A stretch of 54,075 nt of DNA from Candidatus Kuenenia stuttgartensis. GTDB lineage: Bacteria; Pseudomonadota; Alphaproteobacteria; SMXS01. The translations under genes were made by a program, and so were the position numbers. Shown in pieces: positions 26,823 to 46,868 of this stretch. Positions within the stretch are counted from its first letter, which is position 1. Each line of letters begins with the position of its first letter. The notes below the pieces were generated by a model, which was not told the origin of the DNA, ran no database searches, and was given only the letters and a program-made list of their open reading frames with translations. The stretch lies in NCBI GenBank assembly GCA_943329845.2, contig CALQFM020000023.1:1-54075 (forward strand), written 5' to 3'.

Positions 26823-27779
26823 TCAGGCCGCTTCGACGGGTTTGCTGAACTGGCCCTGCTTGCGATAGCGCTCAAGATAGGTGCCGACGATGGATTCTGC
26901 CGGCGTCGGATCGATACCCAGATCGCGCAGCGTCCGGGCGTCCGGGGAAACCACGTTGTCGTGCTTGAGCAATTCCACCTGGTCCATGGTCAGCGGCGCG
27001 TTGGGCAGGATGCCGGTGAAGAACGCGCCGATCTTGGCCGCGAAGAACGGTACCGGCAGCATCATCTTGTCGCGGCGGATCTCGGCCAGCACCAGTTCGA
27101 GGATTTCCCGGAAGCTGTAGACCTTGGGACCGCCCAGCTCGAAGGTCTGGCCGGCGAAGGCGTCCTGCGTCGCGGCGCGGGCGACCGCTTCGGCCACATC
27201 ACAGACATAGACCGGCTGGAAGCGGGTCTTGCCGCCGCCGATCAGCGGCAGGGGCAGCCGCGGGATGCAGGCCAGGCGCGCGAAGCGGTTGAAGAAGCCG
27301 TCCTCGTCGCCGAACACGATCGACGGGCGCAGGATGGTGGCGGCGGGGAAGGCCGCGCGCACCGCGATCTCGCCCTCGCCCTTGCTGCTGGCGTATGCCG
27401 ATTCGGCGTTGCGGTCGGCGCCGATGGCGGATAGCTGGACCAGCCGGCGGACTCCGGCCGCGGCTGCGGCCTTCGCCACGGCCTCGGCGCCGTTCACATG
27501 GACAGACTGGAAGTCTTCATGGCCGGAAGGCTGCAAGATGCCCACCAGGTTGACGACCGCGTCGGCGCCGTCGACCGCCCGGGCCACCGAAGCGGCGTTG
27601 CGGATGTTGGTGGGCAACAGCTGGACCTGGCCCACGTCGCCCATGGGTTTGAGGAAGAGGGCTTCGTTGGGGTGGCGCACCGCCACCCGGATGCGATGCT
27701 TCTGTTTGGCCAGCAGACGCACGACATACCGGCCGATGAAGCCGGAGCCGCCGATCACCGTAACGAGATCACGAGTCAT
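26823..27779 (-). CDS. NDUFA9-like NAD(P)-binding protein (complex I-associated type SDR)
   Basis: A 318-residue atypical SDR with VTVIGGSGFIGRYVVRLLA (Rossmann GGSGFIG) at the start, RLVQLSAIGAD, the ILRPSIVFGDEDGF region and an NDUFA9-type C-terminal part (FRFQPVYVCDVAEAV, LELVLAEIRRDKMMLPVP). Alphaproteobacterial homologues of mitochondrial NDUFA9 are associated with complex I, but direct evidence is limited. ATG 27779 (MTRDLVTVIGG) is the natural start; an earlier in-frame start adds 48 unrelated residues. Confidence 0.9.
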   Translation of the reverse strand: MTRDLVTVIGGSGFIGRYVVRLLAKQKHRIRVAVRHPNEALFLKPMGDVGQVQLLPTNIRNAASVARAVDGADAVVNLVGILQPSGHEDFQSVHVNGAEAVAKAAAAAGVRRLVQLSAIGADRNAESAYASSKGEGEIAVRAAFPAATILRPSIVFGDEDGFFNRFARLACIPRLPLPLIGGGKTRFQPVYVCDVAEAVARAATQDAFAGQTFELGGPKVYSFREILELVLAEIRRDKMMLPVPFFAAKIGAFFTGILPNAPLTMDQVELLKHDNVVSPDARTLRDLGIDPTPAESIVGTYLERYRKQGQFSKPVEAA

Positions 27780-27916
27780 GGAGTCCCTGTTCGCGCGGGC
27801 GTGGAATTCGCCGTTAAAATACCGCCGGACCGCAGGATTGCTACCTGAAACTTCCCGGCGCGGGCCGCATGACGGCCCTGTTGCATGTTTGTTGCGATTG
27901 GCGAGCGATTGGATTG

Positions 27917-27945
27917 TTGACAAGCATCGTGCCGGGCAATAGGAA
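27917..27945 (+). promoter_or_regulatory. Possible promoter of tRNA-Leu
   Basis: TTGACA (27917-27922) and TAGGAA (27940-27945) spaced by 17 bases, ending 28 bases before the tRNA. The -35 is perfect and the -10 weak. Confidence 0.4.
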
Positions 27946-27973
27946 CTGCGTCCACCGTGACAGACACGGAGTT

Positions 27974-28060
27974 GCCCAGGTGGCGGAATTGGTAGACGCG
28001 CTAGCTTCAGGTGCTAGTGATCGCAAGGTCGTGGAGGTTCGAGTCCTCTCCTGGGCACCA
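27974..28060 (+). tRNA. tRNA-Leu(CAG)
   Basis: An 87-base class II tRNA with acceptor GCCCAGG/CCTGGGC, encoded CCA and the anticodon stem CTAGC/GCTAG closing the loop TTCAGGT, giving anticodon CAG, which reads CUG. It has a variable arm and a GTTCGAGTC T loop. It precedes the RNase D-like gene; no integrase is next to it. Confidence 0.95.
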
Positions 28061-33942: not shown

Positions 33943-34359
33943 TCAGGACTTGGCGACGATGTCGATCTTGCGGACGACCGGTTGGCTTTTCGGTCTGGTC
34001 AGATCGACGGTCAACAGACCGTTTTCGACGCCCGCATGCACGACCTCGATCCCGTCGGCCAATACGTAACGCCGCTGGAACTGTCTGGTTGCAATGCCGC
34101 GGTGAACAAAAGTGCGCGTCTTGTCGTCGGGCTGTGCGCCGGCGATGACCAGTTGGTTGTCCTCGACCGTGACGCTCAGGTGTTCGGGCAGGAACCCGGC
34201 GACCGCCAACACGATGCGCCAGCCCGTCTCGCTGGTCTGCTCGATGTTGTAGGGCGGATAGCCGTCGTCCGCCGAGCGGGCGGCACGTTCGAGCATGCTT
34301 TCCAGCCGCTCGAAGCCGAGCAGGAACGGGCTCGACAACAAGGATACACGCGTCACCAT
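33943..34359 (-). CDS. Small heat shock protein, Hsp20/alpha-crystallin family
   Basis: A 138-residue ATP-independent holdase. The alpha-crystallin domain spans about residues 35-125: YPPYNIEQTSETGWRIVLAV, LSVTVEDNQLVIAG, FVHRGIATRQFQRRYVLADG and a C-terminal VRKIDIVAK. ATG 34359 with GGAAGGAGG upstream is the start. A candidate heat-shock promoter is listed separately. It is co-directional with DUF1150. Confidence 0.94.
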   Translation of the reverse strand: MVTRVSLLSSPFLLGFERLESMLERAARSADDGYPPYNIEQTSETGWRIVLAVAGFLPEHLSVTVEDNQLVIAGAQPDDKTRTFVHRGIATRQFQRRYVLADGIEVVHAGVENGLLTVDLTRPKSQPVVRKIDIVAKS

Positions 34360-34444
34360 TGCCTCCTTCCTCGAAGCGGGCAGTGATTGGGCCCCGAAGG
34401 CGCCCATTGGTTCGCGGCCCGAAACCCCGGCGCCGCTTGCATCC

Positions 34445-34473
34445 TATGTGGTTATCCCCGGCCCCGGTTCAAG
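34445..34473 (-). promoter_or_regulatory. Candidate RpoH-type promoter of hsp20
   Basis: On the minus strand CTTGAA (34468-34473) is followed 16 bases later by CCACATA (34445-34451), about 85 bases before the hsp20 ATG. This resembles sigma-32-type elements; the -10 is not a perfect match. Confidence 0.35.
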
Positions 34474-34625
34474 GGGGCCAAGGGTCTGCGGGACCCAGGC
34501 GCCGGGCGCGGTATCTGCGCCCCGTGGGGCTTATGTTGTGGCTTGCCTGCGGCGTTGCCGCTATAAATAGTGCGGACGGACACCAACGGATTCTGCCCCA
34601 GATGGCCCCTTGTCATAGTACGGCG

Positions 34626-35324
34626 ATGTATGGCGCGGGCATCGGGCCCTGCGCTTGGCGCGTCGCCACACGACTGTTGCGTGGCGCCCTGCTGCTGCTC
34701 GCCGTTTCGGCCTGGCCGGCCCGGGCCGATTTCCAGGCGGGCGCCGAAGCCTATTCGCGGGGCGACTACAAGGCCGCGGTCGACGAGTGGCTGCCCTATG
34801 CGGCCAACAACGACCCGCGCGCGCTGTTCAATCTGGGGCAGATGCACCGGCTGGGGATCGGGGTCGACAAGGATCTGGTGAAAGCGGAGCAGTACTACCG
34901 GCGCGCCGCCGAGCTGGGGCATGTGGGCGCCCAGGCCAATCTGGGGTCCATGCTTTATGACCGAACGCCGCCGCAGGCAACCGAGGCGGTCGCGCTCTGG
35001 CGACAGGCTGCGCGGGGCGGTGATGCCAAGTCCCAGTACTTGCTGGGCGTCCAGTTCTTCAACGGCGAGTTCGTCACGCGCGACTACGTGCAGGCCTATG
35101 CGTGGCTCAGCCTGGCGGCGACGGCTGGTGTCCGCGAGGCCGTCGATGCGCTCGCGATCACCCGGACCTACCTGGATGCGCCCGCCATCGAAGAGGCGAC
35201 GAAGCTCGCGGGCACCCTGGTGATGCTACACTACGCGCGCGGCGGCCGCGCCGGCCATGCCCGCCCGCGCCGATCCCGATGCCGCCCAACTCGACGGAGC
35301 CGTGCTGCGGCATCCGGTCGATGA
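34626..35324 (+). CDS. Exported Sel1-repeat protein, 5' half of a probable frameshifted Sel1-SPOR gene
   Basis: Start ATG 34626 gives a signal peptide (RLLRGALLLLAVSAWPARA) and Sel1 repeats: DYKAAVDEWLPYAANNDPRA, LFNLGQMHRLGIGVDKDL, AQANLGSMLYDRTPPQATEA and SQYLLGVQFFNGEFV. After ...EEATKLAGTLVMLHYARGG, similarity ends and the frame runs on in Arg-rich sequence to 35324. A second frame with SPOR domains opens in the +1 frame at 35257. Sel1 proteins act as periplasmic scaffolds. Either a one-base shift between 35225 and 35257 splits one gene, or two overlapping genes exist; see the next entry. Confidence 0.72.
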   Translation: MYGAGIGPCAWRVATRLLRGALLLLAVSAWPARADFQAGAEAYSRGDYKAAVDEWLPYAANNDPRALFNLGQMHRLGIGVDKDLVKAEQYYRRAAELGHVGAQANLGSMLYDRTPPQATEAVALWRQAARGGDAKSQYLLGVQFFNGEFVTRDYVQAYAWLSLAATAGVREAVDALAITRTYLDAPAIEEATKLAGTLVMLHYARGGRAGHARPRRSRCRPTRRSRAAASGR

Positions 35325-36192
35325 CCTGGTGGCCACCGAGTTGTCGCCGATCAGCCCGGACGCGGTCCAGGGCGCTCTTCCCATCCCGCTGCGGGACGAG
35401 ACGCAGGCTTCCGCCATGGCAGCGCCGCCGCCGGCCTTGCCGGCGCAGCCGGCGGCCAGGGGCGTCGACGCGCGCGACGCCGAGTACCGGGCGCAATTCT
35501 CCAGTTTCCCGACCGAAAGCGAGGCGGTGGACCTGCGGCGGACGCTGGAAGGCAAATACGCCAGGCTGCTGGGGGGCGCCGGCGTCGAGGTCGAGAAGCT
35601 GGATGGCGGCGGGCCGCAGCCGGCGGTGTACCGGGTCAGGACCGGTCCGCTGAAGGGCGAGGCGGCGGCCAAGGCGCTGTGCGCCGGTGTCGAGGGCGAC
35701 AGGATCGCGTGCCAGCCCTCCAAGACCACCAGGGTTCCGGTCGCCGTAAAGCAGGATGTGGAGGCGGCGGCTGTCCCGGCGCGGTCCGCGCCGCAGCCAG
35801 GTGCGCCGCCGACCGCCGTATCGCCGCCAAGGTCGCCGCAGCCCACGGCAACGCAGCCCGTGGTGACGGAGCAGGCGGTCGAGCCTCCGGCGCCGGAAGC
35901 CGACGCCGAGCCCGGACCCAAGGCGGCGCATGACGGCGACAACTGGCGGGTCCAGGTGGGCGCCGGCCGGACCGAGGAGGAGGCGCGGTTCCGCTGGGCG
36001 CGGCTGATGGGCGCCAACGCCGACCTGCTCGATGCCGCCGAGCTTTATATCTACAAGGCCGATCTGGGACCCAAGGGCGTGTTCTACCGGGTGCAGATCG
36101 GCGGCTTCGGCACCCGCCCGGCGGCCATCGGCCTGTGCGAACGGCTCAAGACCCGCAAGGTCGACTGCTTCGTGACAGCGACCAAGCCGTAG
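35257..36192 (+). CDS. SPOR-domain protein, 3' half of a probable frameshifted Sel1-SPOR gene
   Basis: A 311-residue frame starting at ATG 35257 with two peptidoglycan-binding SPOR-type domains: YRAQFSSFPTESEAVDLRRT and, at the C terminus, NWRVQVGAGRTEEEARFRWA to VFYRVQIGGFGTRPAAIGLC with RLKTRKVDCFV. A Pro/Ala-rich spacer joins them. It has no signal peptide of its own, although SPOR domains act in the periplasm, so translation as the rear half of the preceding Sel1 protein makes better sense. The frame upstream of the ATG is open to a TGA at 35221 and reads an Ala-rich linker. Confidence 0.75.
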   Translation: MPARADPDAAQLDGAVLRHPVDDLVATELSPISPDAVQGALPIPLRDETQASAMAAPPPALPAQPAARGVDARDAEYRAQFSSFPTESEAVDLRRTLEGKYARLLGGAGVEVEKLDGGGPQPAVYRVRTGPLKGEAAAKALCAGVEGDRIACQPSKTTRVPVAVKQDVEAAAVPARSAPQPGAPPTAVSPPRSPQPTATQPVVTEQAVEPPAPEADAEPGPKAAHDGDNWRVQVGAGRTEEEARFRWARLMGANADLLDAAELYIYKADLGPKGVFYRVQIGGFGTRPAAIGLCERLKTRKVDCFVTATKP

Positions 36193-36210
36193 CCTGACGG
36201 TTCAGCCCGA

Positions 36211-36903
36211 TCAACTCCAGCCGTCCATCCACCGGTTGAGCAGCGCGGTGGCGGCCGGTTCCACCATGCCGCTCATCGCAGCGGTGCGGGCGCGCAGGGC
36301 GGGGATGTCGATGCCGGCCGCGGCCAGTTCGGCGGCGTGGCCGATCAGCCACTGCTCGATCCGGGCCGGGTCGGCTTCGGCGTGGAACTGCAGGCCGAGC
36401 ACGGCGGGGCCGATGCCGAAGGCCTGGTGCGGATAGAGGTCCGAGCCGGCCAGCAGTACCGCGCCGGGCGGCAGGTCGAATGTGTCGCCGTGCCAGTGCA
36501 GCACCGGCACGTCCGAGAGGCCCGCGATGCACGATCCGCCGCCTTCGGCGGTGAGCTGGATACGGCCCCAGCCGATCTCCTTGCGCCCGCCCGGATAGAC
36601 CGGCGCGCCCAAGGCGGCGGCGATGAGTTGGGCGCCCAGGCACAGGCCCAGCGTGGGCCGGCCGGCCTGGACGCGCGCCTTGATGGCTGCCAGTTCGTCG
36701 AGCAGGAAGGGATAGCGGTCGGTCTCGTAGACGCCGATGGGACCGCCGCAGATCACCGCCAGATCGGCGTCGGCGATGGCGGCGGCGATGTCGTCGACGC
36801 CGGCGTCCGCATGGGAGATGTCCCATCCCCGCGCGGCCAGCGGCGCCGCGAACAGGCCCAGATCCTCGAAGGCGACGTGACGGATGACCCTGGCCTGACG
36901 CAC
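36211..36903 (-). CDS. Class I glutamine amidotransferase (GMP synthase-like)
   Basis: A 230-residue GATase1 protein. Cys88 in LGLCLGAQL, His174 and Glu176 in LQFHAEADP form the triad; YPGGRKEIGWGRIQL and VLHWHGDTF are typical of the stand-alone class sometimes named GuaA-like. GTG 36903 with GGGAG six bases upstream is the start; an earlier in-frame ATG at 36933 lacks one. It follows modA on the same strand after about 80 bases. The acceptor reaction is unknown. Confidence 0.9.
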   Translation of the reverse strand: MRQARVIRHVAFEDLGLFAAPLAARGWDISHADAGVDDIAAAIADADLAVICGGPIGVYETDRYPFLLDELAAIKARVQAGRPTLGLCLGAQLIAAALGAPVYPGGRKEIGWGRIQLTAEGGGSCIAGLSDVPVLHWHGDTFDLPPGAVLLAGSDLYPHQAFGIGPAVLGLQFHAEADPARIEQWLIGHAAELAAAGIDIPALRARTAAMSGMVEPAATALLNRWMDGWS

Positions 36904-40853: not shown

Positions 40854-40884
40854 AGAGGCTCAGCAGATAGTCTGCTAAGCCTCT
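40854..40884 (-). terminator. Intrinsic terminator of tRNA-Ala
   Basis: On the minus strand AGAGGCTTAGCAGA and TCTGCTGAGCCTCT form a 14-pair stem with one mismatch and a three-base loop, followed by TTATTTTTT. It lies 17 bases beyond the tRNA 3' end. Confidence 0.85.
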
Positions 40885-40901
40885 GATTTTATTAGGGGTT
40901 C

Positions 40902-40977
<76 letters not shown>

Positions 40978-41020
40978 CCAGGAGTGGCTTCGGCAACCGT
41001 CGGGCCGCCGAAGCCGCGTC

Positions 41021-41049
41021 TATATGCGCGGGGTGCGCTTGAAGGTCAA
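41021..41049 (-). promoter_or_regulatory. Possible promoter of tRNA-Ala
   Basis: TTGACC (41044-41049) and CATATA (41021-41026) on the minus strand, spaced by 17 bases. A perfect inverted repeat, GGCTTCGGC/GCCGAAGCC (40986-40994 and 41007-41015), lies between it and the tRNA; that hairpin could terminate the upstream zinc-ribbon gene or act in tRNA processing. Confidence 0.45.
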
Positions 41050-41053
41050 GCGC

Positions 41054-41380
41054 CTATTTGTCCTCGTCCGTGTCGCTGTCCACGTCCACGTCGACATCGA
41101 CGTCGATCTCGTCTTCCTCGTCCTCGATCTCGAGGATCTGGTCCATGTCGGCGTCGTCGTCATCCTCCAGGATGTCGTCGACATCGACCTCGACGTCCGG
41201 CTTCTTGACGACCTTTTCCTCGACCGGTTCGGCGGTGGGCCGGCGCGGCTTCAGGATGGTTTCGGGCAGGAAGTTTTGACCGCAATTGATGCAGGTGATC
41301 GGATCGGACTTGCCCAGATCGTAGAATCGGGTGCCGCACTTCGGGCACTGGCGCTTGGTTCCCAGCTCAGGCTTGGCCAC
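41054..41380 (-). CDS. TIGR02300 (FYDLN acid domain) zinc-ribbon protein
   Basis: A 108-residue protein. Start GTG 41380 with GAGGA five bases upstream. A zinc ribbon with Cys12, Cys15, Cys30 and Cys33 encloses [12 protein letters not shown], the FYDLN-type motif; [11 protein letters not shown] opens it. The C-terminal half is extremely acidic with alternating Asp-Val and Asp-Glu runs. Alphaproteobacteria carry it divergent from aroA, as here. Function unknown; it may bind nucleic acid or a ribosome component. Confidence 0.92.
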
Positions 41381-41537
41381 CTTTGTCCTCTTCTCTGTGA
41401 TCGTCTTCGGGGTTCGGCGAAACCCATTGCCACGTGCGGCACCGGGTGTCAAAGCACTATTTGGCTGCGAGCCCGGAATTGGCCCGCCGCACAGGCTGTG
41501 CTAGATGGAGCGCCGCAACCTCGAGGACAAGAGAAAT

Positions 41538-42860
41538 ATGGGCGTCCGCACTTCATATCGGATCACCGGGCTGACCGGGACCTACGCCGCCCCGGGCGAC
41601 AAGTCGATCTCGCACCGCTCGCTGATGCTGGGCGGGCTTGCGGTGGGCGAGACGCGCATCACCGGCCTGCTGGAGGGCGAGGACGTGCTGGCGACGGCGA
41701 GGGCCATGCGGGCGCTGGGCGCCGAGGTGACGCGCGGCGCCGATGGCGCCTGGACGGTGCACGGTACCGGCGTCGGCAGCCTGCGCCCACCAGCGGACGT
41801 CCTGGACCTTGCCAATGCGGGCACCGGCGTGCGGCTGTTGATGGGCGTGGTCGCAACCCACCCGTTCACTACCGTGTTCACCGGCGACGCGTCGCTGCGC
41901 AAGCGGCCGATGGAGCGGGTGATGACGCCGCTGCGCATGATGGGCGCGCGCTTCACCGCTGCCGAGGGCGGCCGCCTGCCGGTGACCGTCGAGGGCGCCG
42001 AGATGGCCATGCCGATCCGCTACGTGGTACCGGTGCCGTCGGCGCAGGTGAAGTCGGCGGTGATGCTGGCCGGCCTCAACGCGCCGGGCCAGACCATCGT
42101 GGTCGAGAAGCAGGCGACCCGAGACCACACCGAGAACATGATGCGGCATTTCGGCGCGCGCGTGAGCGTCGAGCGCACGGCGGACGGCGACGTGATCGTG
42201 CTGGACGGCCAGCCGGAGCTGCGCGGCCGTCCCATGGCCGTGCCGGGCGACCCGTCGTCGGCCGCGTTCCCGCTGGTCGCGGCGCTGATCACCGAGGGCT
42301 CGGAGCTGACGGTCACCGGGATCTCCGTCAATCCGCTGCGCGCCGGGCTGTTCGAGACGCTGATCGAGATGGGCGCGTCGCTCGAGATCGCCAACCGCCG
42401 GGTCGAAGGCGGCGAGCCGGTCGCCGACATCACCGCGCGTTCCAGCACGCTGCGCGGCGTCGACGTGCCGGCCGAGCGGGCGCCCAGCATGATCGACGAG
42501 TACCCGATCCTCGCCATCGCTGCGGCCTTCGCCGAGGGCCGCACCACCATGCGCGGGCTCGGCGAGCTGCGGGTCAAGGAATCGGACCGTATCACCGCCA
42601 TGGCGAAGGGCCTCGCGGCCAACGGCATCGCCGTCGAGGAACTGGAGGACGGGTTGATCGTCGACGGCCGCCCCGGCGACGTGCCGGGCGGCGGCACGGT
42701 CGAGACCCATATGGACCACCGCATCGCCATGTCGTTCCTGGTGCTGGGCTGCGCCTCGCGCAAGCCGGTGACGGTGGACGAGGACGAGATGATCGCCACC
42801 TCCTTCCCCGACTTCGCCGGCCTGATGGCCAGCGCCGGGGCCAGGCTGGAGGCGGCGTGA
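41538..42860 (+). CDS. aroA: 5-enolpyruvylshikimate-3-phosphate synthase
   Basis: Sixth step of the shikimate pathway, joining shikimate-3-phosphate and PEP. At 440 residues it is normal. [10 protein letters not shown] at 21-30, [39 protein letters not shown] and [12 protein letters not shown] are family signatures. Both substrates bind through these Lys/Arg clusters. ATG 41538 is chosen; an ATG 11 codons earlier is possible. The stop overlaps the cmk start by three bases, so the two are coupled. Confidence 0.98.
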
Positions 42861-43483
42861 TCATCGCCATCGACGGGCCGGCGTCTTCGGGCAAGGGCAC
42901 GCTTGCCCGGAAACTGGCCCTGCACTACGGCCTGCCGCACCTGGATACGGGCGCGCTCTACCGGGCCGTGGGGCGGCGTTTGCTGAAGGACGAAGCCGAC
43001 CTGCAGGACGTACAGGCGGCTGAGAACGCGGCACGGTCCCTGACGGCCGGCGACCTGAACGATCCCGGGCTGCGCGACGAGGCGACCGGCGAGGCCGCGT
43101 CCATCGTTTCCGCCATGCCGGGCGTGCGTGCGGCGCTGCTGGAGTACCAGCGGACCTTCGCGCGCCAGCCTGGCGGCGCGGTGCTGGACGGCCGGGACGT
43201 GGGGACGGTGATCTGCCCGGAAGCCGACGCCAAGCTGTTCGTGACGGCGGCGGCCATGATCCGGGCGAAGCGGCGCGCCGACGAACTGAAGGCGCGCGGG
43301 GAGCCGGCGGACGAGCGCCGCATCCTGGAAGATATCGAGGCGCGCGACCGGCGCGACGCGGAGCGCACGGTGGCCCCGCTCAGGCCCGCGGCGGACGCGC
43401 ACTTGCTCGATACCTCGAATCTGTCTATAGAAGCCGCCTTTGAAGCGGCGAAAGCCGTCATCGAGTCTGCCGTTCGCAAATAG
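42857..43483 (+). CDS. cmk: Cytidylate kinase
   Basis: A 208-residue kinase that phosphorylates CMP and dCMP. It starts at GTG 42857, overlapping the aroA TGA. P-loop GPASSGKGT at about 7-15, the CMP-binding region [39 protein letters not shown] and the lid region [19 protein letters not shown] are readable. cmk directly before rpsA is the conserved order. Confidence 0.97.
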
Positions 43484-46387: not shown

Positions 46388-46669
46388 GTGATCAAGTCAG
46401 AGCTCATCCAGCGACTTGCTGAAGAATACCCGAGTCTGTATCAGCGGGCCGTTGAACGAATCGTCTCAACCGTATTCGACGAGATCACCAGCGCCCTGGC
46501 GCGTGGCGACCGGGTCGAACTCCGGGGCTTCGGCGCGTTTTCCGTCAAATACAGGCCGGCGCGGCTGGGGCGCAATCCGCGAACCGGCGACGCCGTCGAC
46601 GTAAATGCCAAGGCGGTGCCGTTCTTCAAGACCGGCAAGGAACTGCGCGAGCGCCTGAACGACAAGTAG
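46388..46669 (+). CDS. ihfB: Integration host factor beta subunit
   Basis: A 93-residue DNA-bending protein: [57 protein letters not shown] with the Pro that intercalates in the minor groove, and [16 protein letters not shown]. Starts at GTG 46388. With IHF alpha it shapes chromatin and assists sigma-54 promoters and recombination. Confidence 0.97.
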
Positions 46670-46675
46670 GAAAGT

Positions 46676-46807
46676 CCCTCATCCGGCCGCTGCGCGGCCA
46701 CCTTCTCCCCGGGAGGGGAGAAGGGAAAAGGCGTTTTCCGAAAGCTTGCATCAGGATCCCCTCGCCCCGCCGGGGAGAGGGTGCCGCGAAGCGGCGGGCG
46801 AGGGGCC
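46676..46807. repeat. Pair of GC-rich palindromic intergenic repeats
   Basis: CCCTCATCCGGCCGCTGCGC leads into CCTTCTCCCC/GGGGAGAAGG (46701-46724); a second unit starts CCCCTCGCCCCGCCGGGG and returns to GCGGCGGGCGAGGGG near 46807. Such CCCTC...GAGGG palindromes are common dispersed repeats in Alphaproteobacteria. Here they fill the ihfB-lapA gap and could also act as a terminator of ihfB. Confidence 0.65.
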
Positions 46808-46868
46808 TTCGTGCCGATGCGCTACCCTATCTGTGTCTTCCCGAACCGATCCGCACTAGGCTGACGGC

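Follow-up and report, generated by a model that had tools for sequence, protein, structure and literature searches.

A gene for a predicted exported Sel1-SPOR protein divided by a net one-base frame change in a draft genome

Results and Discussion

The two open reading frames belong to one gene

Two overlapping open reading frames in the window (the whole stretch of 54,075 nucleotides analyzed, which is contig 23 of a draft genome of 107 contigs and 3.68 Mb) are very probably the parts of a single gene disrupted by a non-programmed event, be its cause a mutation or an assembly error. Alignment with related genomes shows descent of both frames from one gene, with a net shift of one base in the interval 35223-35247. 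A real mutation is slightly favoured over an assembly error. The features of the locus are:

33943..34407, - strand: small heat-shock gene (Hsp20-type, named by eye), divergent neighbour used as orthology marker
34626..35222, + strand: upstream part of the gene, coding for the signal peptide and the Sel1-repeat solenoid and sharing the frame of the relatives through GTG (Val199) at 35220-35222
35223..35247, + strand: interval containing the net one-base frame change; it is a divergent patch where the linker begins, and it overlaps with the GC-rich repeat at 35236-35250
35223..35324, + strand: out-of-frame end of the Sel1 ORF, closed by TGA 35322-35324
35224..36192, + strand: downstream part of the gene, read in the +1 frame and coding for a Pro/Ala-rich linker and two SPOR domains

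The Sel1 ORF (34626-35324, + strand) runs from ATG 34626 to the TGA and encodes 232 residues. Its N-terminus resembles a signal peptide (RLLRGALLLLAVSAWPARA/DF, judged by eye and not with a signal predictor) and it contains Sel1 repeats (Pfam PF08238, E 8.5e-24). As the first-pass annotation had described, this half has no native end: 199 residues are homologous to those of the relatives and about 33 out-of-frame residues follow. The SPOR frame opens at 35224, after TGA 35221-35223, has its first ATG at 35257 and stops at 36190-36192. It matched the SPOR family (Pfam PF05036, E 1.3e-18) with 67.6 bits against a cut-off of 21, in two stretches which scored 51 and 21.5 bits in a profile search of the genome; the domains lie at 35485-35688 and 35935-36177. 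Inspection by eye revealed no signal peptide on the SPOR ORF, again in agreement with the first description. The two halves had also been said to abut in the +1 frame. The +1 register was confirmed, but the frames overlap by about 100 bases instead of abutting.

The relatives carry a single open reading frame

The gene was searched for in 40 relatives and in its own genome, and in a family set of 10 genomes that includes its own. In the family set, relatives G001-G006 are from the same genus and G007-G009 from two other genera; the G001 and G004 loci match contigs CAMDTB010000030.1 and CAMBYA010000054.1, respectively. Both parts were found at the same place in a single stop-free ORF in all nine other family genomes examined, with the architecture Sel1 repeats, Pro/Ala linker, SPOR, and a stop-to-stop length of 373-679 residues. 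Identity over residues 1-200 (Sel1 half) was 85% to G001 and 83% to G004, and that of the SPOR half was 76% and 78%, respectively. When the 11 aligned rows were searched with Pfam, Sel1 was found in 10 and SPOR in 10, counts made up of the nine relatives and, for each domain, the window half that carries it, since each window half lacks the domain of the other. Next to the gene, in the window and in eight of the nine relatives, the other strand encodes a GYPPYNIEQ-type (Hsp20-type) motif; it was not found in the stretch retrieved beside the gene in G003.

The Sel1-then-SPOR order at the expected place assigns the window copy to the Sel1-SPOR exported-protein orthologue group of the family, of which it is a disrupted member: it reads in frame 0 through 35222 and in frame +1 from 35248, with no single uninterrupted frame across both parts. 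The orthologues resemble it in domains, domain order and, for eight of nine, the divergent Hsp20-type neighbour, but have one open frame, in contrast to the window copy with its net extra base in the linker. These results bear out the proposal of the first-pass annotation that an indel had split a Sel1-linker-SPOR protein, and homologues encoded as two separate genes with their own signals, which would have spoken against it, were absent from the nine family relatives.

Beyond the family, fused Sel1-SPOR ORFs were found in at least 3 of 31 class-level genomes, as weaker matches in G021, G016 (contig C719) and G025 (contig C26), where both queries match neighbouring places with equal open-frame length. 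A class-wide search of 115 genomes gave matches at 1e-12 in 69, mostly to partial Sel1 or SPOR regions, and these were left out of the question of the split. A second intact copy of the gene was not found in its own genome.

The length of the linker varies among relatives. Among the 25-base blocks compared over 34950-35499, conservation of the linker that precedes the first SPOR domain was lowest at 35450-35474 (12 of 25 matches to G004 and 15 of 25 to G001).

The frame changes at the border of the solenoid and the linker

The position of the frame change was determined from a nucleotide alignment with G001, G004, G002 and G005. The window carries one net extra base relative to its two nearest relatives, G001 and G004, located after GTG 35220-35222; the base count rests on these two relatives because G002 and G005 have gaps of whole-codon scale in the linker. 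Up to 35222, differences from G001 were distributed as 22/14/54 over the three codon positions of the Sel1 frame. Between 35248 and 35324, 8 of 12 differences from G001 and 7 of 13 from G004 fall on third positions of SPOR-frame codons; this segment lies inside the Sel1 ORF, yet shows the synonymous-position signal of the SPOR frame. In 35223-35247 no codon position was preferred (3/3/3). The switch in synonymous position therefore places the event within or very near the 25 bases 35223-35247.

Over the 24 bases compared in this interval, 9 mismatches and one gap were counted, both against G001 and against G004. The block 35225-35249 matches G001 at 16 and G004 at 15 of 25 positions, compared with 18-25 in most neighbouring 25-base blocks, and some blocks deeper in the linker also drop to 12-17. 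Because the interval is a divergent patch, the event can be assigned to the interval but not to an exact base. The pattern suggests that the event may have been more complex than one base, since the patch does not look like a clean homopolymer slip. A copy of the patch from elsewhere in the genome was considered and rejected: 17 bases spanning its start (35221-35237) have no other match in the genome, even when 2 mismatches are allowed. The first-pass annotation had placed the shift at the GC repeat CGCGCGGCGGCCGCG. This string was located at 35236-35250 as described, and a shift within it is possible; the interval also includes the bases preceding the repeat.

An AlphaFold model of the intact G001 protein, built from 4 alignment rows (mean pLDDT 59.4, pTM 0.37) and of modest quality, was used for domain limits only. 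Helices extend to residue 198, and pLDDT is below 50 at residues 201-291, as if the linker were disordered, a prediction of low confidence. These limits place the break at the border of the solenoid and the linker. Residues 446-526 follow the order strand-helix-strand-strand-helix-strand, the order of SPOR domains.

Both parts have been under purifying selection

In the comparison of the window with G001, dN/dS was 0.175 (Sel1 half) and 0.325 (SPOR half), both inside the ranges found among four intact relatives (0.108-0.266 and 0.225-0.397, respectively). Lineage-specific residue changes in the Sel1 half were 14 in the window against 9 in G001, and 14 against 12 in G004, with G002 as outgroup; with G005 they were 9 against 10 and 11 against 11. 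For the SPOR half the corresponding counts (window:G001 and window:G004) were 18:16 and 18:19 with G002, and 15:21 and 13:23 with G005. By these relative-rate counts, neither half has clearly changed more on the window lineage than on those of the relatives. The substitution pattern shows past purifying selection on both halves, and together with the lack of a clear excess indicates that the break is either very recent or an assembly error. The SPOR half may have had too little time to decay, or may be intact in the organism, or may still be translated through a bypass. Absence of decay is also expected from a working bypass, and the Sel1 changes unique to the window, slightly above those of G001 with outgroup G002, would count slightly against a disruption of the kind preferred here.

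Origin of the frame change

A draft-assembly error, with the gene intact in the organism, is one form of the non-programmed disruption, so that the confidence given to it is part of that given to the whole and not to be added to it. We regard it as a serious possibility, of somewhat less than even probability. The site is GC-rich, the draft is in 107 contigs, the other nine family genomes are all intact here and there is no sign of relaxed selection on the window lineage in either half, all of which speak for an error. On the other hand, the site is a divergent patch and not a homopolymer, and no second split gene was found in the 46,034 window bases compared with relatives (see below), which indicates that the assembly is not indel-rich here.

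A functional fission, giving an exported Sel1-only protein and a SPOR protein started separately at ATG 35257, is very unlikely. This ATG lies within the open SPOR frame, 11 codons from its beginning, but no Shine-Dalgarno-like sequence was seen by eye upstream of it (GCGGCCGCGCCGGCC), a scan for the sigma-70 consensus only gave no promoter-like site in 34400-36300, and the product would lack a signal peptide as judged by eye. Furthermore, homology to G001 and G004 in the SPOR frame reaches 35236, upstream of the ATG. The two-gene reading was rejected because none of the nine family relatives is split.

Programmed +1 frameshifting, which would yield a short product with Sel1 alone and a long one with Sel1 and SPOR, had been thought conceivable in the first-pass annotation and is now given almost no weight. 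In its favour are the conservation of both halves under selection and the overlap of the ORFs, about 100 bases in the register that such a mechanism requires. The mechanism would also require that selection maintain the shift. It was rejected because all nine family relatives are in frame and none carries the shift, the Sel1 frame has no nearby stop at which a ribosome would stall (the nearest is at 35322-35324) and the RNA fold of 35236-35325 is ordinary (z -0.51, with 56 of 200 shuffles folding at least as well). A stimulatory RNA structure is not required at every programmed frameshift site. A search of one literature library found no paper that mentions both programmed frameshifting and a SPOR domain, which is weak evidence. 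A +1 recoding particular to this species, or a phase-variable linker site that chooses between free and SPOR-anchored Sel1, is just as improbable.

Predicted function of the intact protein

SPOR domains recognise peptidoglycan strands that have lost their peptide stems and that are concentrated in the septal ring; binding of such denuded glycan is a trait of the family as a whole (PMC6895207). Repeats of the Sel1 type serve in contacts between proteins, for example in periplasmic ExoR (PMC7327166, PMC4550343). From this peptidoglycan recognition, and from the Sel1 contacts known elsewhere, we infer that the intact protein would act in the periplasm as an adaptor held to the cell wall. The gene would encode one exported, probably periplasmic protein composed of signal peptide, Sel1 solenoid, Pro/Ala linker, SPOR domain, second linker and C-terminal SPOR domain, in which the SPOR domains would attach the protein to denuded peptidoglycan where the cell divides and the solenoid would bind a partner.

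In the assembly this frame is broken by the one net extra base at the linker start (35223-35247). If the base is real, the cell would make an exported Sel1 product of about 199 native and about 33 foreign residues, and the two SPOR domains would be left unmade or in the cytoplasm. Four other SPOR loci were found in the same genome by the profile search, suggesting that this loss may be tolerated.

Besides the orthologues, the closest known proteins include ExoR-like proteins of Alphaproteobacteria, akin to the window protein in being periplasmic and Sel1-repeat, some with SPOR. PMC4550343 lists SPOR among the outlying structural predictions for non-orthologous ExoR homologues, which occur in Caulobacterales, Rhodobacterales, Rhodospirillales and Sphingomonadales, and the pairing of Sel1 with SPOR is therefore not new. 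The window protein is not ExoR: it scored 25.1 against the equivalog cut-off of 450 bits (NCBIfam NF045484). Like the SPOR-domain division proteins FtsN, DedD and DamX, named in PMC7642682, it has a C-terminal SPOR domain, but unlike them its N-terminal part is a Sel1 solenoid. It scored 21.7 bits against a cut-off of 300 for FtsN of the Caulobacter type (NCBIfam NF050813) and 29.7 against the equivalog cut-off of 201 for RlpA. Since the scores with the equivalog models for ExoR, FtsN, RlpA, MerG, AlgK and MotX were all far below the cut-offs, no named family is claimed.

The first-pass observation is correct but ordinary. Its value is mainly for annotation, in that the entry for the two ORFs should be a single frameshifted Sel1-SPOR gene and not two proteins. 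If the extra base is real, the locus would be a natural experiment in which a conserved envelope protein has lost the half that binds peptidoglycan and kept the one that is exported.

Other genes of the window

The search for other split genes used ORFs of at least 90 aa and relatives G001, G004, G002 and G005 (38, 11, 47 and 44 matched ORFs, respectively); rows were dropped if E was above 1e-8, if identity was under 45% or if a better match overlapped them by over 40%. At least one relative covered 46,034 of the 54,075 window bases, leaving 8,041 without a relative, and the comparison was confined to the window. The Sel1-SPOR gene was the only gene found split in the bases compared. It accounted for four of the eight multi-frame rows, one per relative. 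Three of the other four start at tRNA genes, where the ORF of the relative extends upstream of its gene:

2164-2253: tRNA-Ser, multi-frame row against G002
27974-28060: tRNA-Leu, multi-frame rows against G004 and G005

The last, 40967-41501 against G001, is antisense to a - strand ORF (41054-41452) and continues in another frame against G002. In a noisier version of the comparison seven rows were flagged, three of them the Sel1-SPOR gene and two the region 26826-28000. Another, 46418-46826, is antisense to an intact 93-aa ORF on the + strand (46388-46669) that matches G001 and G002 at 94-96%, and the remaining one, 40882-41045, overlies tRNA-Ala (40902-40977). None of the flagged rows other than those of the Sel1-SPOR gene was judged to be a broken gene.

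At 26826-28000 (- strand) the ORF of G001, G004 and G005 switches frame at the upstream end (27875-28000); the switch adjoins the tRNA-Leu gene and looks like extension of an ORF past its start codon. An open frame of 819 aa at 41024-43483 (+ strand) passes through an aroA-like gene (41505-42860) out of the frame of that gene, and its end resembles a cytidylate kinase (names by eye); it is a chance extension in GC-rich DNA that ORF callers could take for one gene.
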